35,734 nt of DNA from positions 1 to 35,734 of IMG/VR virus record IMGVR_UViG_3300030103_001111; one strand, written 5' to 3'. Shown piece by piece: positions 7,589 to 27,093 of this stretch. How positions within the stretch are numbered: the stretch's first letter is position 1; each line of letters opens with the position of its first letter. This DNA comes from a virus. The position numbers and the translations under genes were made by a program. The notes beneath the pieces are model-generated. The model was not told the DNA's origin and did not search any database. It was given only the letters and a program-made list of their open reading frames with translations.

Positions 7589-7938
7589 TGCAAGAAGTTG
7601 TAACTCTAATTAATGAAGTAGGATTTCCTATTGCCGCCGCAGGCGGTCTTGGTTTATTTATATGGAAACTAATAAATAGGATTATTGACGGAATGGAAAC
7701 AAAACTAGATACGCTAGATGATAAGCAAGCAGAACTGATATCCAATATGGAAGAAAGGCTCGGAACAAAATTGGACTCACAGCATGGAATACTGGTAGCA
7801 TTGATAGACAGAGTACGCAGTCTGGACAATGAGATCATTCGTCAGGACACACTTATTAAAACAATTTTAGGTGTGCCACAGTTGATAGACAGCAACAAGA
7901 TTGCAAAGGCAGATAGAGATGATCAAAGAAAAGATTGA
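7588..7938 (+). CDS. Small membrane-anchored coiled-coil protein (holin-like candidate)
   Basis: 116 residues from the ATG overlapping the previous stop (TAATG). One hydrophobic segment at about residues 8-27 (INEVGFPIAAAGGLGLFIWK) is followed by a long charged helix likely to form a coiled coil (KLDTLDDKQAELISNMEER onward). This layout recalls XhlA-like or other small phage lysis/membrane proteins, and the gene opens the lysis region. No family-specific motif is visible, so holin function is only a suggestion. Its TGA overlaps the CsgF-like start (TGATG), so the two are translationally linked. Confidence 0.5.
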   Translation: MQEVVTLINEVGFPIAAAGGLGLFIWKLINRIIDGMETKLDTLDDKQAELISNMEERLGTKLDSQHGILVALIDRVRSLDNEIIRQDTLIKTILGVPQLIDSNKIAKADRDDQRKD

Positions 7939-8405
7939 TGAACCTACAAGATAGTGTATTTGCAATTATAGGAATAATTTTGGTTCTTATTGTGGTTGTA
8001 GTACAACAACTGCAAGCAGATGAAATGGTGCATGACTTCAAATCACCATCATTTAACGGACAAGGTACGTCAAGTCATTATCTTACTATTGAGAATCAAG
8101 AGTTCAATAGAGCAGAATCCATAAGAAAGGAAATAGAAGCACTGCGAGAAGAAATAGAAAGGGAAGAAAACAACACAGTAGAAGCTAGATTCATGAGGAA
8201 TCTTACCAGTCGTATCTATGCGAACCTTGCAAGGCAAATAGAAGCATCATTATTTGGCGAGCAAATAAGTAAATCTGGTGAGATGGAATTAGATGGCAAC
8301 ACTATTGAATATGAAATTACAGACGAAGAGGTTAGAGTAACTATCACAGATGAGGATGGCAATGTTACAGAAGTCATTGTGCCTATTGGCGGTTTTACTT
8401 TCTAG
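7938..8405 (+). CDS. csgF: CsgF-like curli assembly protein
   Basis: 155 residues. A hydrophobic N-terminal segment (about 6-22) resembles an export signal or anchor, although its n-region lacks Lys/Arg. Directly after it, MVHDFKSPSFNGQGTSSHYL matches the CsgF N-terminal motif F-(R/K)-x-P-x-F-x-G that, in E. coli, inserts into the CsgG channel. The helical middle (about 60-115) and the C-terminal beta section (IEYEITDEEVRVTITDEDGN, ending VIVPIGGF) parallel E. coli CsgF (IVDIANRDG...NVTDRKTGQ...QVSGL). In curli systems CsgF couples secretion to fibre nucleation at the cell surface. It overlaps the csgG-like gene by 44 bp. The CsgF assignment is strengthened by CsgG being its neighbour. Confidence 0.82.
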   Translation: MNLQDSVFAIIGIILVLIVVVVQQLQADEMVHDFKSPSFNGQGTSSHYLTIENQEFNRAESIRKEIEALREEIEREENNTVEARFMRNLTSRIYANLARQIEASLFGEQISKSGEMELDGNTIEYEITDEEVRVTITDEDGNVTEVIVPIGGFTF

Positions 8406-9162
8406 TTGTACTCTAATGATTGACCCTCTACAAAACAATCTACCACCTGTAGAGTATGTAGAAAAGGCAAGTACAGTTGTTCTACACACAGAGTTAGCAG
8501 ATGTTGATGAGCCTGAAAGAAAACCTGTTATTGCTGTATACGCAAATGATTTTAAAGACCAAACAGGGCAGAGACGATCTAACTCCAAATATGCCACGTT
8601 TAGCACGGCAGTTACACAAGCACCACATGCATACCTTATAAGGGCGCTTAAACACGCAGGAGCGAACAAAAATGGTTTCTTTGAGGTAGTAGAAAGGGTA
8701 TCACTAGATGCGGTTACAAAAGAGCGACAATTGATACGATCCACAAGAGAAACATTTGAAGAAGAACAAAGACTCATGCCACTGAAGTTTGGCGACATGA
8801 TTATGACTGGTGGTGTCCTATCATATGAAGCTAACATAGAAAGCGGAGGGGTGGGGGCAAGGTATTTAGGTATCGGCATGTCACGCAAAATAAGACGTGA
8901 CCAGATAACCGTAAGCCTTAGAACAGTTTCAGTTTCTACAGGTCGTGTGCTTATAGAAACATTAGTTACAAAAACAGTTTTCTCAGCATCACTTGATAAT
9001 GATGTATTTAGATTTATATCTGATGAGACAGAACTGGTAGAATTGGAAGGTGGTACTGTAAAGAACGAGCCAATGAGCATAGCTTTGCAGATAGCAATAG
9101 AAACGGCAGTGCTTCAAACAATAGAAGAAGGAGTGAAACATAATTTTTGGAGGTACAAATGA
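8362..9162 (+). CDS. csgG: CsgG-like outer-membrane secretion pore lipoprotein
   Basis: 266 residues from ATG 8362, chosen over ATG 8350/8356 because GAGG lies six bases upstream and the product then begins like E. coli CsgG: short n-region, hydrophobic core, lipobox L-S-S-C. Conserved CsgG signatures follow: VYANDFKDQTGQ, ATFSTAVTQAP, VTKERQLIRSTRETFEEE (cf. NERKIIRAAQENG), the nearly identical SYEANIESGGVGARYLGIG, DQITVSLRTVSVSTGRVL, FRFI, NEP and AIETAVLQTIEEG. CsgG forms a nonameric outer-membrane channel that exports curlin. In the constriction loop the Phe equivalent to F56 is kept, while Y51 and N55 align with Ser and Thr. It overlaps CsgF at the start and the curlin-like gene by four bases at the end (ATGA). 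Confidence 0.93.
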   Translation: MLQKSLCLLAVLLSSCTLMIDPLQNNLPPVEYVEKASTVVLHTELADVDEPERKPVIAVYANDFKDQTGQRRSNSKYATFSTAVTQAPHAYLIRALKHAGANKNGFFEVVERVSLDAVTKERQLIRSTRETFEEEQRLMPLKFGDMIMTGGVLSYEANIESGGVGARYLGIGMSRKIRRDQITVSLRTVSVSTGRVLIETLVTKTVFSASLDNDVFRFISDETELVELEGGTVKNEPMSIALQIAIETAVLQTIEEGVKHNFWRYK

Positions 9163-9872
9163 AGAAAATTTTACTCATGTTTCTGTTAGCTATGCCATTG
9201 ATGGGTGCTGACAATGAAATATTCGTTGACCAGAGCAGTGGTTCATCAAACTCTAATATGGATTTAGAGCAACTAGGCTCAGGTAACATAATTGGAGGTA
9301 TAGATGCTGAAGCAGGAGCAATGACTGCTCTTGACTTAGATGGCACAGCTATGACTCTTGACATAAATCAGATTGGAGACAGTAACAAATTCTTAGGTGA
9401 CATCACCGCAGATTCATATACTGGCTTCTTTGAATTTGACGGTAATAGCAACACCTTTAACATGAACACAGATAAGACAAACACCTTTGGTGCTGACTCA
9501 TCTAACGTGAATGTTGACGTCACTGGCAATAGTAATACCTTTACTTTAAATCAAGCCACAACTGCTTTAGCCGCTACACTTGATTTAGATTGGATTATAA
9601 ATGGTTCAAGTAACAGCATTACAGCATCCATAGATGTAGATGGTGCTACTAACTACATGGATATAGACGGTTCTGATAATACTGTCACATATGATGGAGA
9701 TGGTTACGCAGGAGGTTATTTCTGGCTTGATCATACGGGCAGTGATAGAACCTTTAATATACAACAAAAATCAACACAAGATAATGACTGGCTCAAGATT
9801 ATTAGTACTGGTTCTACTACTTCAAGCGTTTGTGTTATCCAAAACGATCAAGGCACAAGCACAGGATGTTGA
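9159..9872 (+). CDS. Curlin-like secreted repeat protein
   Basis: 237 residues. Start ATG 9159 has GGAGG five bases upstream and gives a clean Sec signal peptide (MKKILLMFLLAMPLMGA, cleavage before D18). The mature protein starts with a Ser/Asn/Gly-rich stretch and then carries G-x-x-N units with N at about 43, 76, 98, 126, 152 and 174, spaced 22-33 residues. Two of them are exact curlin motifs Q-x-G-x-x-N (QLGSGN, QIGDSN); later ones are GNSNTF, GSSNSI and GSDNTV. E. coli CsgA repeats are about 22 residues with the same motif. It has two Cys near the C-terminus, including the last residue. Probably the substrate of the neighbouring CsgG-like pore; amyloid formation is inferred. Confidence 0.75.
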   Translation: MKKILLMFLLAMPLMGADNEIFVDQSSGSSNSNMDLEQLGSGNIIGGIDAEAGAMTALDLDGTAMTLDINQIGDSNKFLGDITADSYTGFFEFDGNSNTFNMNTDKTNTFGADSSNVNVDVTGNSNTFTLNQATTALAATLDLDWIINGSSNSITASIDVDGATNYMDIDGSDNTVTYDGDGYAGGYFWLDHTGSDRTFNIQQKSTQDNDWLKIISTGSTTSSVCVIQNDQGTSTGC

Positions 9873-10905
9873 TATAGGAAGCATAAGCGAACTTAAAGGC
9901 AACGCACAAGTAGTACGAGACAAACCATACGGAGCAGAAATTGACTTTGGAATACTTAGTTATGACAAAGTAGAAACTGCCAATGGTCGTATGGGTATAA
10001 CATTTATAGATGAGACGCAGATAAGACTTACAGAAAATTCAAAGGTTTTGATTGACGAGTTTATATTTGATCCAAACCCTGACAAATCCAAGATGGCACT
10101 TACCTTTGCAAAAGGTACTGCAAGATTTGTTACAGGTAAATTAAATAAGGTAAGGAAAAAAAATATAAAGATACGCACGAGCAGTGCCACTATCGGAATT
10201 AGAGGGACAGACTTTACGATAACTGTAGATGAGTTAGGCAGGTCATTGGTCATTTTGCTACCTGACATAGATGGTATGTCCAGTGGTGAAATATACGTAG
10301 AAACGGCGGCAGGTATTGTAATACTTAATAAACCATATCAAGCCACAACTACAAGCACATATAACTCCGCACCAACTAAGCCAGTCACTTTAGATATAAC
10401 ACTTGATCTGATAGACAATATGCTGATAGTAAATCCACCTAAAGAAAGTGATAACATCAATGCTGAAGAAGCACAACAAGCAAGTTCTGACTATTTAGAT
10501 TTCTCTGATCTAGATATAGATTTTTTAGCTGAAGATTTTTTAGACAACTCTGAAGAATTAACTTTTACAGAATTGGATATCAACTATCTAGACGTAAACT
10601 TTCTTGAGGACTTATTAAACATCATAGATGCGCTTGCCGTATCAGAAGAAGAGGATAAGTTAAATCAACTCGCTACAGGTATAAGAATAACAGGCACAGA
10701 GATAGGGCAAGATAAAGACACACAAATTACAACCATAATTAGTGGTCAGATAGTTAGTATCAGAAGGGCGGTAGGAGATACATTCAGATTAGATTTAGAT
10801 GGTTCTAGTTCATACACTTTGCTTCTTACACAAAACGGTGTAGAAAATACAGTTAAAGTAAATGGCGGTACAGACAACACAATACAGGTAAAGCAAGGCA
10901 ACTAA
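9784..10905 (+). CDS. Secreted FecR-domain protein with curlin-like C-terminal motifs
   Basis: 373 residues from ATG 9784, chosen because it yields a signal peptide (LLVLVLLLQAFVLS core, A-Q-A cleavage near residue 26); the gene overlaps the curlin-like gene by 89 bp. Residues about 28-200 form a FecR domain: GSISELKGNAQVVR, YDKVETANGRMGITFIDETQ, MALTFAKGTARFVTGKL and IRTSSATIGIRGTDFTITVD. The middle is acidic with DYLDFSDLDIDFLAEDFLD-type Leu/Asp repeats (about 235-285). The last 30 residues contain QNGVEN, GGTDNTI and QGN, resembling curlin repeat units. There is no membrane segment after the signal and no sigma-factor partner, so the classical FecR signalling role is doubtful. It may be exported or help nucleate the curlin-like protein (inference). 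Confidence 0.78.
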   Translation: MTGSRLLVLVLLLQAFVLSKTIKAQAQDVDIGSISELKGNAQVVRDKPYGAEIDFGILSYDKVETANGRMGITFIDETQIRLTENSKVLIDEFIFDPNPDKSKMALTFAKGTARFVTGKLNKVRKKNIKIRTSSATIGIRGTDFTITVDELGRSLVILLPDIDGMSSGEIYVETAAGIVILNKPYQATTTSTYNSAPTKPVTLDITLDLIDNMLIVNPPKESDNINAEEAQQASSDYLDFSDLDIDFLAEDFLDNSEELTFTELDINYLDVNFLEDLLNIIDALAVSEEEDKLNQLATGIRITGTEIGQDKDTQITTIISGQIVSIRRAVGDTFRLDLDGSSSYTLLLTQNGVENTVKVNGGTDNTIQVKQGN

Positions 10906-14246: not shown

Positions 14247-14450
14247 TTACCCCCTATTGCTTCCGTAGTTATAAAATATACCAGTCAATGCAAGTTCTGC
14301 TCTTTTGCCTATCCTTACCTTGTCATTCTCCCATCTTGATATAACTGATCTATTAGGCTCACCTGCACTGTAATATCCTAATTTTGCAGCTAATTCTGCT
14401 TGTGATAGGTTGTACTTAGTTCTTAAATACTTTAGTTCTTCACCATTCAT
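14247..14450 (-). CDS. XRE-family helix-turn-helix regulator
   Basis: 67 residues from the ATG overlapping the preceding stop (TAATG); an in-frame ATG twelve bases earlier is possible. LKYLRTKYNLSQAELAAKLG followed by NRSVISRWENDKVRIGKRAE is a standard XRE/Cro-C1 helix-turn-helix (helix 2 SQAELAAKLG, recognition helix with SVISRWEND). The protein is only the DNA-binding domain, with no peptidase or ligand domain. It lies inside a unit whose own promoter contains the TGTTTACA palindrome, so it is one candidate for the repressor of that operator family. Confidence 0.82.
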   Translation of the reverse strand: MNGEELKYLRTKYNLSQAELAAKLGYYSAGEPNRSVISRWENDKVRIGKRAELALTGIFYNYGSNRG

Positions 14451-14935
14451 TATTTCCACCATTTTGGTTTATCAACACCTTTGTTCCATGCGGCATAGTG
14501 TTTTTCGTTAATCATGTAATCACGATAAGCCGCAACGTGATTGTACTTTCTCTTATATTTGTCAGGCATAGCCTGAGCAAAACTCGTCATTTCACCTTCC
14601 TGTATGTTCATTGGAAAGCGCAACAGACCTTCTTGCAAATCTCCCCATGATTTGTGGTTATGTCCATATCGTAATTTAAACTGCGAACATAACTCAACCC
14701 AATGCAAAAGCAACCACCTATAATTTTCATGGGTAGTTCTTGCCCATATAGTGCAAGGGTGATTTACAAAAGCAGGTTTATAAAGGTCATAAGCATCACA
14801 ATACTCTTTCGGTGAAAGTATTCTGTGTGCGGTGCATAACATTTGTGCGCTTTCTAGCGGCATCTTGCAAATTAATTTATCAGGCAAGTCTATAGCTGCC
14901 AAATCTGGTTCTAGTCTAACTGCAAATATATTCAT
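14450..14935 (-). CDS. Conserved phage protein of unknown function
   Basis: 161 residues. MNIFAVRLEPDLAAIDLPDK, then ICKMPLESAQMLCTAHRILS, FVNHPCTIWARTTHENYRWL and SFAQAMPDKYK match a family I recognise from many marine phages (D-K-H-V-V-K-M-x-x-E-x-A-Q-L-L-x-T-A-H-R and H-P-C-x-x-W-x-R motifs), but its function is not established to my knowledge. Here the usual D-K-H-V-V-K-M start of the motif is D-K-L-I-C-K-M, so one frequently conserved His is replaced. Soluble, no signal peptide. Coupled to the genes on both sides by overlaps. Confidence 0.72.
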   Translation of the reverse strand: MNIFAVRLEPDLAAIDLPDKLICKMPLESAQMLCTAHRILSPKEYCDAYDLYKPAFVNHPCTIWARTTHENYRWLLLHWVELCSQFKLRYGHNHKSWGDLQEGLLRFPMNIQEGEMTSFAQAMPDKYKRKYNHVAAYRDYMINEKHYAAWNKGVDKPKWWK

Positions 14936-15888
14936 AGTTTTACCTCATAATCTTTTTGGACTACACCTACATCTTTGCTTCCTCTAAAGTGTGCTTTTAC
15001 AAATGTGTGCTTTCCGTTTTTAAGTCTGCGTAAATGTTTTCTTACACTGTGAAACTTTGTGCCTTCTGACCTGCTGCCATTACTGCACCCTGTACCGCTC
15101 TCGCTTCCATAAAGGTCTAATTTAAGCGTTTTATGCTCCCATGTAGGCTTTGCCCTTAGATCGCTAGCTTTGTACCTGCTGCGGCTTTCTAGCACCTGTG
15201 GTTTGACGCCTTGTACTTGCTTAGTAGCAGTAATCTGTGGAAAGTGCATCATCAACATAAATGTTACAAGACAGGTTGATATGCTGCTCGCCCATCTTTG
15301 CATTGAACGGTTGGTATACATGCCTTCACTGTCACTACTAAAATCTGTGCAGTAAGCAAAAGGATTACTGTCTTCATTCTCATTCAGTTCATATTTGAAT
15401 GTAGAATCTGTGTAAAACTCCATCAAATATAAATTAGGATCAAACACAAAAGCATCTTCACTCTTTATGTAGGGTATAGAACTAACACTATATTGACCTT
15501 GCAGTTTGGGATTAGCTTCGGCAATTTCTTTTTCTGTGGCATCCCACAACATATCACAGACAACCATGTTAATCGCTATGTCGCCTGCATCAACTTGCAT
15601 GAAACACATTTCATACGGCAAGCAAAAAATTACTTCATTAGATATTTTGTCTGCTTCTTCTTCTGTGAGGTGATCTTCTTTAACATCAACATAAAACTTT
15701 TGTGAAAGTTGTATGCTGCGCGTCAACATCTTGAACCATGAGTGCATGACTTCCAAACCTAAAGTATCAGGCTCTATGTGATCAGGCATTACCCAACTTT
15801 TTTTGAATACTGCGTTTGGGTCTTTTGTGTGCTTGGTATCAAAAGTTTTGTATGTATGCAGTAATTTTTCTAATATTAATTTATTCAT
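14932..15888 (-). CDS. Hypothetical protein, first gene of an operator-controlled leftward unit
   Basis: 318 residues with GGAG nine bases before the ATG. The first ~215 residues are acidic to neutral without a motif I know (EVIFCLPYEMCFMQVDAGDI). The C-terminal ~60 residues (FHSVRKHLRRLKNGKHTFVK then AHFRGSKDVGVVQKDYEV) match a short basic segment, V-R-x-H-x-R-x-L-K-x-G-K-x-x-x-V-x-x-H-x-R-G, that recurs in unrelated phage proteins. Promoter and palindromic operator lie immediately upstream (15920-15950). Function unknown. Confidence 0.65.
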   Translation of the reverse strand: MNKLILEKLLHTYKTFDTKHTKDPNAVFKKSWVMPDHIEPDTLGLEVMHSWFKMLTRSIQLSQKFYVDVKEDHLTEEEADKISNEVIFCLPYEMCFMQVDAGDIAINMVVCDMLWDATEKEIAEANPKLQGQYSVSSIPYIKSEDAFVFDPNLYLMEFYTDSTFKYELNENEDSNPFAYCTDFSSDSEGMYTNRSMQRWASSISTCLVTFMLMMHFPQITATKQVQGVKPQVLESRSRYKASDLRAKPTWEHKTLKLDLYGSESGTGCSNGSRSEGTKFHSVRKHLRRLKNGKHTFVKAHFRGSKDVGVVQKDYEVKL

Positions 15889-15919: not shown

Positions 15920-15950
15920 AATATAGCCATGTTGTTTACATTTGTAAACA
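15920..15950 (-). promoter_or_regulatory. Leftward promoter P1 with palindromic operator
   Basis: On the minus strand: TTTACA (15948-15943), 17-bp spacer, TATATT (15925-15920). The -35 lies in a perfect palindrome TGTTTACA-AA-TGTAAACA (15950-15933), so a bound repressor would block polymerase. ATG of the regulated gene is at 15888. The same palindrome occurs at 27048-27065, and a near copy at 16980-16997. Confidence 0.75.
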
Positions 15951-16548: not shown

Positions 16549-16688
16549 TACACATTCCTCAATTTACGCTCTAGTTTCAAGGCATTGTTATGCTCTTTTT
16601 CACTATATGTATTTCTTGAAAGCTGCTCTAATGCAACACCCATCAGAACTAATTCATGTTCTGTAACTTCTAATACAATTTTTTCCAT
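16548..16688 (-). CDS. Very small hypothetical protein
   Basis: 46 residues, MEKIVLEVTEHELVLMGVAL through LKLERKLRNV. Start and stop both form TAATG overlaps with the neighbouring genes, which strongly supports translation in the series. Amphipathic helical sequence resembling small regulatory or anti-host phage proteins; no family recognised. Confidence 0.6.
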   Translation of the reverse strand: MEKIVLEVTEHELVLMGVALEQLSRNTYSEKEHNNALKLERKLRNV

Positions 16689-16936
16689 TACACTAACTCC
16701 CTTACAGTATCAACGTCAGAATGAAAATTAGAATCTTCTAACGCTTCTACAAATGTTTCAAAGATACTGTCTCTGTCCCATTGGTTGAACTTAGATACAA
16801 TAAGACCTAACACCTCAGCATCGCTAGGTGCGGCATCTTGTACATATGCTTTTGCTTTTACGTCTTTGATAAGTGCAGGCATTACAAGTTTTATTACTTC
16901 GTCGCTGCTTAGATTTTCAGTATTAAGATTTGTCAT
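16688..16936 (-). CDS. Small hypothetical protein, first gene of operator-controlled unit
   Basis: 82 residues, acidic (MTNLNTENLSSDEVIKLVMP; FNQWDRDSIFETFVEALEDS). GGAG precedes the ATG (GGAGACATTAA-ATG). No family recognised. Directly downstream of promoter P2 and its operator-like palindrome, heading five overlapping small genes, a layout typical of early host-takeover clusters. Confidence 0.6.
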   Translation of the reverse strand: MTNLNTENLSSDEVIKLVMPALIKDVKAKAYVQDAAPSDAEVLGLIVSKFNQWDRDSIFETFVEALEDSNFHSDVDTVRELV

Positions 16937-16969: not shown

Positions 16970-16998
16970 ATTATATACATGTTTACAAAAATAAACAA
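16970..16998 (-). promoter_or_regulatory. Leftward promoter P2 with imperfect operator
   Basis: Minus strand: TTGTTT (16998-16993), 17-bp spacer, TATAAT (16975-16970). An imperfect copy of the palindrome, with two mismatches in one half (TGTTTATT-TT-TGTAAACA, 16997-16980), overlaps the -35 and spacer. The following leader (ATATTAAGTAAATAAATTG) nearly repeats that of promoter P3. Drives the gene starting at 16936. Confidence 0.7.
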
Positions 16999-17013
16999 GT
17001 ACTTTTTGTACTT
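16997..17013 (-). terminator. Terminator hairpin of the recombination unit
   Basis: AAGTAC-loop-AGTACTT hairpin directly after the stop of the Ref-like gene (17020); read leftward it is followed by the T-rich TGTTTATTTTTG. Its base touches the operator of P2, so termination of one unit and control of the next are packed into about 40 bp. Confidence 0.5.
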
Positions 17014-22439: not shown

Positions 22440-23128
22440 TGAAAGATGTAAAAGATTTATATGATGCTGCTGCATCACGATATGACAATATGTATCAAGA
22501 AGACAAAACACTTATAAAAGCAGAAAACATGTTTTTATATGAAAACCTACCAACAGTTGGAGTGAAGTCCATTTTAGACTGTGGTGCAGGTACTGGTCTG
22601 TTTGCTGATCTTTTTGAAAAAAAATTGTGGCATACAAAATACAAGGGTGTAGATATAAGCGAAAAGATGATAGAGGTTGCTAAAAACAAACATGTAACCC
22701 TTGATTTTGAGGTAGCAGACTTTATGGAATATGAGGATCATAATACATATGACCTTGTAGTGAGTTTGTTTGCAATTCCTGACTATTGTGGAGAAAAAGG
22801 AATTATAAAGATGCGCAGTCATTTAAAAGAAAATGGTTTGATGTACCTTACATTCATAAATAAAAACGGTGGTTACAACGCTCTATGTCATGAAGAGATG
22901 AATTCTGATGTAGAAACTACTAAATTTTCCTATCAAGAAATAAAAGACATTTTAAAAAAAATGGAATATGATTGGTCGTACATTTTGGGTTTTTCTAGTT
23001 TGGAGTATAATGATGCAAAAGGATCGTTTAAATTTAAAGACTCAGTTGAGGCTATATATACAGATATGGAATATAGAAAACATAATCTTAAAAACTGTAA
23101 GTATTATCTTTTAATCTTACAAGCATGA
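22439..23128 (+). CDS. SAM-dependent methyltransferase (class I)
   Basis: 229 residues. Motif I SILDCGAGTGLFADL (about 45-58), then YKGVDISEKMIEVAKN with the ribose-binding Asp, DFEVADFMEYED and YDLVVSLFAIPDY. Class I Rossmann methyltransferase of the small-molecule/protein type; it lacks the N-P-P-Y or P-C motif of typical DNA base methyltransferases, so the substrate is open. Stop-start overlaps on both sides (TAATG, ATGA) couple it to the primase-helicase and to the PAPS-reductase-like gene. Confidence 0.82.
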   Translation: MKDVKDLYDAAASRYDNMYQEDKTLIKAENMFLYENLPTVGVKSILDCGAGTGLFADLFEKKLWHTKYKGVDISEKMIEVAKNKHVTLDFEVADFMEYEDHNTYDLVVSLFAIPDYCGEKGIIKMRSHLKENGLMYLTFINKNGGYNALCHEEMNSDVETTKFSYQEIKDILKKMEYDWSYILGFSSLEYNDAKGSFKFKDSVEAIYTDMEYRKHNLKNCKYYLLILQA

Positions 23129-24261
23129 AACTTAATCTTAATATAAGTGTATTTGATGCAGCTTTAAATAGACTGCAAGAGGTTTATGAGCAAGGACACA
23201 CTGTAGTTATTTCTCAAAGCGGCGGTAAAGATTCTACTATCTGCATGGAGTTAGCAATAATGGCTGCAGACGCAGCAGGCAAATTACCAATCAATGTAGT
23301 ACATCGTGATGAAGAAATACTTTTTCCAAATACATATGAGTACTTGGACAGAGTTGCAGCAAGACCTGAAGTCAATATGCACCACGTCTACGCAGGGCAA
23401 CCTGTAGTGAATGTATTTAATCGCAGCTTGCCGTATTGGTGGATATTTGATGAATATATAGACCCATCTGATTGGGTAAGACAACCGCCAGATTACGCTT
23501 ATAAAATAGAAGAAAAAAATATCAACGCATTGGTTACACCAGAAAGATTTCATGTAGATGAAGGCAAAGACCTTTATGCCTGCATAGGCTTACGTGTGCA
23601 AGAAAGTCCGAACCGAAGAATGGGTTTATTTTCTAGTAAAGGTCATATAACCAAGCCAAATGACAGAGGCGTAAAGTATGTTAGACCGATATATGACTGG
23701 ACAGATGGTGATGTATGGAAAGCTATATCTGATTTTAAATGGGATTACAATCACGCTTATGATGTTATGGTCAAGCACGGCAGATCAAAAAATAAACTGC
23801 GTATAGCACCTTTGACAATGACAACTGCAGGCATACCAGATTTACAGTTAGCACAAAAGGCATGGCCTCGTTGGTTTGACAAAGTGTGTCATAGACTTGA
23901 CGGCATACGGACAGCAGCACAGTTTGGAAAAATATCTTGTCAACCGATCAGAAAGTCTGGCGAAACATGGGAAGAATGTTTTAAAAGGGAGTGCATAGAA
24001 GATGCACCTGATTGGATTGCAGAAAGAGCAGTAAAAATAATGGGTGTTGAACTCAAAAAGTTTGACAAGCAAAATGGTTCTGACATGGATTTTCCACAAG
24101 TAAATTCTATAAGAGCAAATCCAAATGGCTCTTGGAAAAAATTGGCTATGAATATGTATAACGGAGATCCCTTCTCTCTAAAACAAGGCTCGCTGCCGTA
24201 CATGGAGCCAGAATATTTTAGGGAAGGTGCAGGTACATGGGGCGGCAAGCCTACTTTCTGA
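23125..24261 (+). CDS. PAPS-reductase-like PP-loop ATP-pyrophosphatase family protein
   Basis: 378 residues. VISQSGGKDSTICMELAIMA (SGGKDS at 32-37) is the PP-loop. VVHRDEEILFPNTYEYLDRV and LYACIGLRVQESPNRRMGLF follow the phage/DndC-like PAPS-reductase superfamily, and PIYDWTDGDVWKAI is typical. The catalytic E-C-G-x-H tail of true PAPS reductases is absent, so sulfate reduction is unlikely. The PP-loop suggests adenylation chemistry, for instance thiolation or other base or tRNA modification. Occurs with a small conserved protein and a ParB-like protein in overlapping order, a recurrent phage association whose function is unresolved as far as I know. Confidence 0.85.
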   Translation: MKLNLNISVFDAALNRLQEVYEQGHTVVISQSGGKDSTICMELAIMAADAAGKLPINVVHRDEEILFPNTYEYLDRVAARPEVNMHHVYAGQPVVNVFNRSLPYWWIFDEYIDPSDWVRQPPDYAYKIEEKNINALVTPERFHVDEGKDLYACIGLRVQESPNRRMGLFSSKGHITKPNDRGVKYVRPIYDWTDGDVWKAISDFKWDYNHAYDVMVKHGRSKNKLRIAPLTMTTAGIPDLQLAQKAWPRWFDKVCHRLDGIRTAAQFGKISCQPIRKSGETWEECFKRECIEDAPDWIAERAVKIMGVELKKFDKQNGSDMDFPQVNSIRANPNGSWKKLAMNMYNGDPFSLKQGSLPYMEPEYFREGAGTWGGKPTF

Positions 24262-24533: not shown

Positions 24534-25343
24534 ATGGCTAGAACTAAAGGCAAGGCAGAAGTAGAAAAAAAGAATAAAGTCTTAGAGGCTTTAGATATCA
24601 AATATATTACACACGACAAAATCGTGCCTAATACATACAACCCAAACAGACAATCAGATGATGAATTTGAATTGCTTAAAAGGTCTATGACAGAAGATGG
24701 TTTTACACAACCCATAGTCTGTGTACATCACGAAGAACAAGAAGGCATGTTCAGAATAGTTGATGGGGAGCACAGGTGGAGATGCTCTAAAGAATTAGGC
24801 TATGAAGAAATACCTATAGTAGTAACTCCAATGACTTATGAGCAAGCAAGAATAGCGACACTCAGACACAACAGAGCAAGGGGTTCAGAAGATATTGAAC
24901 TTACATCTGAGGTTCTACGAGATTTAGAAAAGTTAGGCGCTTTAGATTGGGCTCAAGACAGTCTTATGATGGACGACCTAGAATTACAAAGAATGATAGA
25001 AGATATACCTGCTCCTGAAGCTATGGCTGATGAAGAATTTGGTACTGCATGGATTCCAACCGATTCAGATTCAGCAGAAGATAGCGTAAAAGGCACAGAA
25101 CACAAAACTGCTGACGGAACTATGATCAAGGCTCTTACACCTGAAGCATTATCTGCACAAAGACAGGTAGAAAAAAAGATAGCAGAAGCTAAAACGGAAG
25201 AGGAAAGAACTATGGCAGTTCAAGCCGCTAACTTCTATAGACTTAATCTTGTATTCAGTGGAGACGAAGCAGATATTGTAAAAGGAGTATTGGGTGACGA
25301 GCCTGCAAATGCTCTATTAATGCTTTGTAAAGCACAAAACTAA
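24534..25343 (+). CDS. ParB-like nuclease/Srx-fold domain protein
   Basis: 269 residues. A basic N-terminus, then the ParB/Sulfiredoxin-fold domain: VPNTYNPNRQSDDEFELLKR, GFTQPIVCVHHEEQ, FRIVDGEHRWRCSKELGYEE (D-G-E-H-R motif near 77-81) and IPIVVTPMTYEQARIATLRH. The C-terminal half is acidic and helical. The family includes chromosome-partition ParB CTPases, DndB-like proteins and phage nucleases or NTPases; there is no ParA partner or HTH domain here, so partitioning is unlikely. Preceded by AAGGAG. It closes the replication-modification unit. Confidence 0.8.
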   Translation: MARTKGKAEVEKKNKVLEALDIKYITHDKIVPNTYNPNRQSDDEFELLKRSMTEDGFTQPIVCVHHEEQEGMFRIVDGEHRWRCSKELGYEEIPIVVTPMTYEQARIATLRHNRARGSEDIELTSEVLRDLEKLGALDWAQDSLMMDDLELQRMIEDIPAPEAMADEEFGTAWIPTDSDSAEDSVKGTEHKTADGTMIKALTPEALSAQRQVEKKIAEAKTEEERTMAVQAANFYRLNLVFSGDEADIVKGVLGDEPANALLMLCKAQN

Positions 25344-25374: not shown

Positions 25375-25441
25375 AACGAAAAGGTCGTGGGTAATGGTAT
25401 AGCATCCCCTTAACTATGCGGCTTGCAGGTCATTGAGCAAT

Positions 25442-25470
25442 AAAAAAGACCTCTTACGAAGTCTCTTTTA
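25442..25470 (+). terminator. Convergent terminator
   Basis: AAAA-AGAC, loop, GTCT-(C)-TTTT between converging units (ParB-like gene from the left, cyclotransferase-like gene from the right). Flanking A- and T-runs allow intrinsic termination in both directions. Confidence 0.6.
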
Positions 25471-25477
25471 TCAAAGT

Positions 25478-25945
25478 TTACTTTACTAATCTAAAGTCCC
25501 TTTGTTCTTCTCTAGCATACGCATCTTTTATTGCATACTTTAAGTAAGTTTCATCTAGAGCAAAGTCATCATAACCTTCCATTATGCAATCTAGATAAGG
25601 CATGCTAGGTGGATAGACTGATGTACTGTTCATAAAGTAAATCATAACCTTGTCAGTATCAAAATCATCTGCAAGGTTAGGAACCTTACAAATCTTTTTT
25701 CCATAAAGGTTAGGATAGCCTTCATATATGTCTAGCGCAGCTTCACATCTTTGGGTTATCCTCCAAAGACCTAGCGGCACTAAGGCATCTTCTTTTTCTT
25801 CAATGTCTGCTACACCTCTGAATTTAAGTTCCCATCCGTGCAGCAACATGGTTCCGACTGGTTGAGCATCAGGACATCTTCTGCTCATTTGGTCTACGTT
25901 AAGATTACTTCCGTAAGCTCCGTATAAGTAAGTTTTATATTTCAT
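25478..25945 (-). CDS. Gamma-glutamylcyclotransferase-like (AIG2/GGCT fold) protein
   Basis: 155 residues. YLYGAYGSNLNVDQMSRRCP is the GGCT substrate-loop motif (Y-G-S-N-L), followed by PVGTMLLHGWELKF, PLGLWRITQRCEAALDIYEG with catalytic-type Glu75, and YPNLYGKK. These enzymes release 5-oxoproline from gamma-glutamyl amides. AGGAG precedes the start. It is encoded 15 bp after an amidoligase, and amidoligase-GGCT pairing is an association proposed from comparative genomics of the amidoligase superfamily (Iyer and Aravind). The pair probably makes and unmakes a gamma-glutamyl or isopeptide-type modification; the target is unknown. Confidence 0.85.
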   Translation of the reverse strand: MKYKTYLYGAYGSNLNVDQMSRRCPDAQPVGTMLLHGWELKFRGVADIEEKEDALVPLGLWRITQRCEAALDIYEGYPNLYGKKICKVPNLADDFDTDKVMIYFMNSTSVYPPSMPYLDCIMEGYDDFALDETYLKYAIKDAYAREEQRDFRLVK

Positions 25946-25960
25946 ATTTTCTCCTTGTTA

Positions 25961-26995
25961 TTAATTAAGTTCTATTTCACGCTCTGCAAAGTAACTTTTG
26001 ACTGTTTGATCAACACCATCTAGCCATCCGTTATCTTGTTCTGTATTAGGGTTTCCTGCTTGTCTTTGTAGTACCCATATTTTTTGTAAATCATTATCTC
26101 TTGTATTCCTGCAAAGGTAGTCATAAGCAGCATCCCTATCTAATGAGCTTTCTCTAGCACCTGTGTAAAGATCATTCAGTTCATCATTTCTAAGTATGGT
26201 CACAAAAGAACCATACCTGCCGCCTTCTTTCTCAACCTTCCAACCGTTATATCTTCTGCTATAAAAAACATCATATCCATTGTTCTCTAAGATGTTTCTT
26301 ATCATGTTATAAGGTCTGTTTTTGTTTAATGTCACAGTTCTTGTACCTGCAAGCTGAACACTTCTCTCAACAAAGGTCTGCAAAAAACTTAACCAATTTA
26401 CAATTTTAGTAAAATTCAAAGTACCACTGTGGTGTCTGAACTCTATAGTTCCGTATGTAGTTAGCTTGTTAAGATTTACTTTGTAGTATTTACCTGCAGC
26501 ATGTGCAAGTCTGTTTTTGGTGGGTTGTCTCTTGATTCTGTTTTTGTTAGGCACAACACTGTCACACCAATTAGCATTACCTCTTCTGCTTCTAGGCATT
26601 ACAAGGTCAATTTGTGCTTCATAGTCTGCGTATCTTTCATAAACAGTTTGTATCTGTCTTACTGTAAGATCATCAACACCTAAATGTATGTGTAACCCAC
26701 ATCTTCTAGTAACGGTTATACCCTCTATAGTCTCTAGGGCATCACACACCTTTTTAAGTTCAGCTACACCTTCAACACCTTTTAGAATTGGTGATACTAT
26801 CTCACCACAAGTAGTATAGTTAGGAAGACTTCCATCTGTAACAATTTTCCAATAGTCAGTCACCCTATGCGTATATCCCTCAAAGTGGCAAGCAACAACT
26901 TGGTTAAGTTTGTGTGCTACCGCTTGTATATCTGCACCTTCAAACTCCATTTCTATTCCAAATGTTCTGTCTGTTATGGTTGGTAAGTTATTCAT
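25961..26995 (-). CDS. Amidoligase (COOH-NH2 ligase) family protein
   Basis: 344 residues. TFGIEMEFEGADIQAVAHKL (E15, E17: the E-x-E metal-binding start of glutamine-synthetase-like ligases), ITVTRRCGLHIHLGVDDLTV (H-x-H near residue 103), NKLTTYGTIEFRHHSGTLNF and TKIVNWLSFLQTFVERSV are the signature motifs of the putative amidoligase family. These are predicted to form amide bonds using ATP. Expressed from promoter P3 with a perfect palindromic operator, with GGAG before the start, and followed by the GGCT-like gene. Full length; key acidic and His residues present. The substrate cannot be read from sequence. Confidence 0.88.
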   Translation of the reverse strand: MNNLPTITDRTFGIEMEFEGADIQAVAHKLNQVVACHFEGYTHRVTDYWKIVTDGSLPNYTTCGEIVSPILKGVEGVAELKKVCDALETIEGITVTRRCGLHIHLGVDDLTVRQIQTVYERYADYEAQIDLVMPRSRRGNANWCDSVVPNKNRIKRQPTKNRLAHAAGKYYKVNLNKLTTYGTIEFRHHSGTLNFTKIVNWLSFLQTFVERSVQLAGTRTVTLNKNRPYNMIRNILENNGYDVFYSRRYNGWKVEKEGGRYGSFVTILRNDELNDLYTGARESSLDRDAAYDYLCRNTRDNDLQKIWVLQRQAGNPNTEQDNGWLDGVDQTVKSYFAEREIELN

Positions 26996-27034: not shown

Positions 27035-27065
27035 ATTATAGGTGAATTGTTTACAAATGTAAACA
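27035..27065 (-). promoter_or_regulatory. Leftward promoter P3 with palindromic operator
   Basis: Minus strand: TTTACA (27063-27058), 17-bp spacer, TATAAT (27040-27035): a near-consensus sigma70 promoter. The -35 lies in the perfect palindrome TGTTTACA-TT-TGTAAACA (27065-27048). The leader ATATTAAGTTAATAAATTG closely repeats that after P2, and GGAGATAAATTG repeats that after P1. Drives the amidoligase gene. Confidence 0.8.
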
Positions 27066-27093
27066 CTTATTTGCACAAAATGTACTATTTTTT

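Follow-up and report, generated by a model that had tools for sequence, protein, structure and literature searches.

The window, by which we mean the whole linear virus record of 35,734 bp analyzed here, carries an amidoligase and a gamma-glutamyl cyclotransferase (GGCT) as a compact two-gene operon. On balance, we lean toward the view that the two genes make up a phage operon in which one enzyme forms gamma-glutamyl-type amides and the other cleaves them, a make-and-break couple expressed early and serving host takeover or the exclusion of competitors.

The pair is less unusual than the original prediction implied, being common in clostridial prophages and in the Ca. Heliusvirales gut phages. 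The pairing is also not new: public pipelines annotate it, and several papers discuss it. Passages in three publications (PMC11253131, PMC11318856, PMC10580990) cite Iyer et al. 2009 for the pairing as a proposal from comparative genomics with no known substrate, in agreement with the original prediction. New here are a quantification of the pairing that carries no bias for GGCT, evidence that both enzymes keep their catalytic residues, an operator regulon conserved in the phage lineage of the window, and the caution that an apparent four-gene block represents one evolutionary event. The couple is widespread among phages and prophages. In the minimal form seen here, just two genes served by their own promoter, operator, and terminator and stable across the phage lineage, it is tractable for finding the substrate; both proteins are small and soluble, and in one a catalytic residue is clearly identified for mutation. 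Through the conserved operator, expression of the pair would also be tied to that of early genes, narrowing the possible timing and purpose of its action.

Genomic setting

The gene order points to a tailed phage, with a tape measure, tail and fibre genes, an endolysin, and a leftward early block, followed by a primase-helicase, a methyltransferase, PAPS-reductase-like and ParB-like genes, and then terminase, portal, protease, and capsid genes. The pair is encoded on the other strand, in the interval from the ParB-like gene to the terminase, as an isolated leftward unit with rightward gene blocks on both sides and a gap of 15 bp between its two open reading frames. Assignment of the reading frames at 25478-26995 to an amidoligase and a GGCT was correct, the coordinates being exact and both proteins scoring above the curated cut-offs of their families. 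Among phage protein families, they fall in phrog_2443 and phrog_2520, respectively.

25961-26995, minus strand: Amidoligase_2 (PF12224) protein, 344 aa; family profiles, motifs, fold model, dN/dS
25478-25945, minus strand: gamma-glutamyl cyclotransferase (PF06094), 155 aa; family profiles, catalytic residue, fold model, dN/dS

The amidoligase

The amidoligase matches the PF12224 profile with 99.7 bits (E 3e-28; curated cut-off 22). It contains the motifs GIEME (E15/E17), TDGS, GEIVSP (E65), CGLHIH (H102/H104), and IEFR (E185/R187), and 19 aligned sequences, with identity down to 22%, have 23 invariant columns, which include G13, E15, E17, D54, S56, E65, H102, H104, E185, and R187. The putative metal- and ATP-binding motifs GxExE, E, HxH, and ExR are kept in all 19, and their residues may be the equivalents of the catalytic residues of glutamine synthetase.

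An AlphaFold2 model (pLDDT 75.5) predicts a fold of the glutamine-synthetase/GCS (YbdK) type. In Foldseek, YbdK (1r8g, E 5.5e-4), annotated in E. coli as putative glutamate--cysteine ligase 2, is the only match below E 0.001, and TM-scores are low, at about 0.35. VIA-align superposes the model on glutamine synthetase (Z 12, rmsd 3.4, 207 residues aligned) and also lists GmaS-type gamma-glutamylmethylamide synthetases (Z 11.2 and 10.0). Confidence in the fold is moderate because Amidoligase_2 has no relative among PDB sequences: a search of these with the amidoligase returned chance matches only (haemagglutinin, TDP-43), and the family profile matched none. Short matches appear in hhalign, of GTIEFR with GTVEVR of YbdK and of CGLHIH with SGMHCH of GlnA, but their probability is negligible and they are too weak standing alone. 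YbdK/glutamate-cysteine ligase and glutamine synthetase therefore resemble the window amidoligase in predicted fold and short motifs but differ from it in lacking full-length sequence similarity (hhalign probability under 2% for the profile against YbdK and GlnA).

The Amidoligase_2 fold is common to enzymes that activate the gamma-carboxylate of glutamate with ATP and pass it to an amine. A cytosolic amidoligase of this kind would spend ATP on linking a carboxylate to an amine of the target molecule, the donor most likely being the gamma-carboxylate of L-glutamate.

Beyond the Pfam match, residues 218-344 (25964-26344, minus strand) form a lineage-specific C-terminal extension in which no known domain was found; its tail is strongly conserved, with GWLDG...ER..ELN at the extreme C terminus.

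The gamma-glutamyl cyclotransferase

The second protein matches PF06094 (GGACT) with 30 bits, against a curated cut-off of 22.8, and its model is of high quality (pLDDT 90). The best structural match is human GGCT (E 1e-8, TM 0.71), not GGACT or ChaC. In the profile alignment, E75 of the phage protein falls on the position occupied by Q in 3cry and by A in 2rbh, two entries that we take to be E98 mutants of human GGCT; E75 is thus the equivalent of human E98, because it aligns with the position mutated in those two structures. Both E75 and the YGSN loop are invariant in 17/17 GGCT sequences. The human enzyme (2pn7, 3cry) therefore shares the fold, the YGSN loop, and the catalytic Glu, whereas identity is about 25% and the phage protein is shorter. 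Estimates of dN/dS against close relatives, where they converged, are 0.03-0.16 for GGCT and 0.08-0.21 for the amidoligase, and these low values place both genes under purifying selection.

GGCT-fold enzymes cleave a gamma-glutamyl amide by cyclizing the glutamyl part to 5-oxoproline, a chemistry that requires a free alpha-amino group. The phage enzyme would accordingly be expected to attack gamma-glutamyl amides, yielding 5-oxoproline and the free amine, and together the couple may install and remove, or remodel, a gamma-glutamyl cap. If the two enzymes had the same substrate and acted at the same time, making and breaking one bond would be a futile cycle. Because neither protein shows an evident signal peptide on inspection, the acceptor should be cytosolic; candidates are proteins, precursors of the envelope, and amines that are polyamine-like or act in signalling. 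The targets put forward in the original prediction, a host protein, a wall peptide, a phage protein, or a defence metabolite, are likewise candidates only.

Transcription unit and operator

The promoter of the pair lies just outside 25478-26995. With the elements that follow, it gives the pair the anatomy of a self-contained operon, having its own promoter, operator palindrome, and terminator-like hairpin.

27035-27063, minus strand: sigma-70-type promoter TTTACA-17-TATAAT, 11/12 match; architecture conserved in relatives
27048-27065, unstranded: operator-like palindrome TGTTTACA-AA-TGTAAACA overlapping the -35 element; conserved before the amidoligase in relatives
15933-15950, unstranded: second copy of the palindrome, an exact one, ahead of the leftward operon 15888-13091
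16980-16997, unstranded: third, imperfect copy, before the leftward early gene 16688-16936
27073-27085, unstranded: second conserved box, GTACATTTTGTGC on the minus strand, recognized by eye just upstream of the -35 element
25439-25472, minus strand: terminator-like hairpin after GGCT, with a 15-bp stem, GUAA loop, and U-rich end
14247-14462, minus strand: HTH_3 (Cro/CI-type) protein, 71 aa, in the leftward operon headed by 14932-15888

An isolated unit with a near-consensus promoter had been predicted, and both the strand arrangement and the promoter match agree with this. Promoter-like matches as such are not enriched in the window (5 found, 6.8 expected from shuffles), nor are palindromes with 8-bp arms (4 found, 3.8 expected). 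Support for the promoter and operator comes instead from exact repetition and conservation: the 16 specified bases of the palindrome occur exactly twice in the window and in 0/300 dinucleotide shuffles, and the palindrome stands at the same place in 17 of the 18 related amidoligase upstream regions inspected. The pattern GTTTAY-N4-RTAAAC occurs one to three times per record in nine related records, in which a reversed control pattern gave no match. This conservation, together with the repeat of the exact sequence, justifies the "phage operator" of the original prediction, the palindrome presumably acting as such.

Copies in the relatives precede the amidoligase and an early gene like 16688-16936 and, among the closest relatives, also the operon headed by 14932-15888. 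The recurrence of the palindrome before the amidoligase and early operons suggests that the pair belongs to a small phage-controlled regulon. A candidate for the protein that binds the operator is the 71-aa HTH_3 protein, which has homologues in all six large relatives compared. Since its promoter carries the same operator, the operon would be read alongside the phage early genes, and early expression of the pair is probable, given an operator common to early-type genes.

The hairpin after GGCT is absent from the list of a simple terminator scan, and the stretch as a whole, with a z of -1.2, folds only a little better than shuffles. The second box has a counterpart, GTACTTTTTGTAC, beside the 16980 operator (16999-17011). 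Of the form GTAC-N5-GTGC/GTAC and palindrome-like, this box is found immediately ahead of two of the three operators and recurs in relatives; it is possibly the site of a second regulator.

A temperate lifestyle was considered as the reason for the operator and set aside, as no tyrosine integrase was found in the window or in seven relatives; the search was for tyrosine and not serine integrases, in records that may be incomplete, and is not decisive.

Two further genes are associated with the additional operator copies. The last gene of the operator-controlled leftward operon encodes a 2OG-Fe(II) oxygenase (PF13640; 13091-13645, minus strand), and a Ref-like RecA-dependent nuclease (PF16786; 17020-17337, minus strand) is encoded beside the third copy.

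Distribution and pairing

With the amidoligase alone as the query, viral contigs yielded 21 loci, at 41-95% identity, and GGCT is directly downstream in every one. Bacterial genomes searched with the amidoligase motif alone gave 80 loci, at about 22-29% identity and mostly in Clostridia; GGCT is downstream in 74, adjacent in most, and three of the six exceptions are contig ends. The original prediction named loss of active-site residues and lack of pairing in related genomes as the outcomes that would speak against it. Neither was observed, because the active-site residues of both enzymes are kept in divergent relatives and the pairing is present in nearly all.

Most of the bacterial loci are prophage-like, 43 of the 80 encoding, where the large terminase would be expected, a protein family that we infer to be this terminase from its position and from the annotation of similar records. 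About 11 of the 80 have instead a TraG-type ATPase, with CHAP or DUF6103 proteins nearby, as on conjugative elements. A role specific to the virion is weakened by this presence of the pair on clostridial loci with conjugation-type genes.

Phages and such loci face the same host defences, which would suit a counter-defence or metabolic salvage function in which the target is a host gamma-glutamyl metabolite or signal, to be destroyed or capped by GGCT and the ligase. GGCT-family enzymes do degrade gamma-glutamyl peptides, and the operator of the pair is common to early genes. We nevertheless judge this function unlikely, and find it equally hard to credit that its aim would be to free amino acids or to block a defence: the closest structure is GGCT rather than the glutathione-specific ChaC, many of the carrier loci are clostridial and their hosts are for the most part devoid of glutathione, and a pure salvage role would need no ligase.

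In the Ca. Heliusvirales gut phages, the terminase gene comes shortly after the pair. In Bacillus phage 055SW001, about 1 kb separates the two genes, and a Porphyromonas phage has the amidoligase with no neighbouring GGCT annotated.

History within the phage lineage was followed through 80 large-terminase (TerL) relatives, the slot occupied by the pair being visible in 43, or 44 with the window. A single branch of the TerL tree separates the 21 carriers of the pair from the rest, and no loss is seen among them. Relatives that lack the pair have mixed small genes in the slot, with no obvious functional substitute as judged without a family search. A sister sub-lineage (L156, L166, L186) has a conserved gene of ~80 aa between GGCT and amidoligase, making a three-gene unit.

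Co-occurrence with the adjoining genes

The PAPS-reductase-like gene (phrog_2302) lies at 23125-24261 and the ParB-like gene at 24534-25343, both on the plus strand, with a 97-aa gene in between. The pair might be half of a four-gene nucleic-acid module with these two, by which a DNA or nucleotide modification is made or guarded. Among the 44 TerL relatives with the slot visible, PAPS reductase and ParB are both present in 21/21 with the pair, whereas those without it have PAPS reductase in 0/23 and a ParB gene in 2/23; a search of whole records (up to 54 kb) found PAPS reductase, amidoligase, and GGCT all present in 3/18 and none of them in 15/18. ParB-domain proteins also occur near the pair in 45 of the 80 bacterial loci, all of them found through the amidoligase, and in the representative scanned, the ParB-domain protein is fused to a DNA methylase. 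On the TerL tree, however, the pair and the PAPS reductase change once each, on the same branch, and the perfect co-occurrence is therefore not independent evidence, as one change explains both traits. Moreover, a PAPS reductase is near the pair in just one of the 80 bacterial loci, and weakly, and the PAPS-reductase-like and ParB-like genes of the window are on the strand opposite to the pair. The co-occurrence is suggestive only, and a four-gene module seems to us improbable; that such a system would use a gamma-glutamyl group as a temporary cap while a modified nucleic acid or nucleotide is built or protected is more improbable still.

A functional link of the pair to PAPS reductase and ParB was accordingly set aside, a single change on the TerL tree sufficing to produce even the 21/21 versus 0/23 distribution of PAPS reductase.

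Known systems and possible function

The closest parallels are the pairs of clostridial prophages and Ca. Heliusvirales, which comprise the same two families (phrog_2443 and phrog_2520) in the same order, with GGCT just downstream, at a matching location close to the terminase and a ParB-domain gene (PMC3485107, PMC11253131). Named examples are Orf22-23 of C. difficile Tn6164, beside a terminase gene, and Terrisporobacter TPDSL_ph1. They differ from the window pair in sequence (22-45% identical in those aligned), in often having two tandem amidoligases or two GGCTs, and in being co-directional with the head genes, whereas the window pair runs counter to them under a conserved operator of its own.

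The peptidoglycan cassette of podoviruses of the phiEco32, PSA-HP1, and LUZ24 type likewise has an amidoligase and a GGCT among early/replication genes (PMC5498523, PMC11945000), but adds an ATP-grasp protein, a second ligase, and an amidotransferase or aminohydrolase, where the window record has the two genes only. Of the components that define such a cassette, neither ATP-grasp nor GATase (glutamine amidotransferase) gave a Pfam match among the window ORFs scanned, which left out a few small ones in a record that may be incomplete, and a second amidoligase was not found, PF12224 matching once in the record.

For these related cassettes, passages in the literature present an envelope reading that leans on the comparative genomics of Iyer and colleagues: wall remodelling was predicted for those of the phiEco32 type and repeated for marine and clostridial phages (PMC5498523, PMC11253131, PMC11318856). 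Applied to the window in the strict sense of Iyer et al., this would mean cell-wall or surface remodelling for superinfection exclusion, which we regard as possible but doubtful. The lack of an evident signal peptide in either protein fits an action on cytosolic peptidoglycan precursors, to which the amidoligase would add an unusual peptide or amino acid and which GGCT would trim, with the result that other phages or wall-directed agents fail; this version, too, we entertain only tentatively. Two genes are present here rather than the larger cassette, and the gamma-D-Glu of the peptidoglycan stem does not have the free alpha-amino group that GGCT requires. Owing to this requirement, GGCT would be restricted to a newly added gamma-glutamyl group and would not act on the stem gamma-D-Glu.

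For the early make-and-break couple that we favour, the most plausible purpose would be to alter a cytosolic host envelope precursor or another amine-bearing host metabolite, the end served being host takeover or the exclusion of competitors. That the genes of a wider wall-modification cassette were not found here counts against this preferred explanation as well.

Other genes of the window

Homologues of the curli secretion proteins CsgF (PF10614) and CsgG (PF03783, E 2e-44) are encoded at window positions 7935-9162 on the plus strand, with 9147-10905. Genes with DUF3060 and FecR domains come after CsgF/CsgG, and the block as a whole lies between the tail fibre and endolysin genes. Curli genes are reportedly treated in papers on pelagiphages and an OM43 methylophage.
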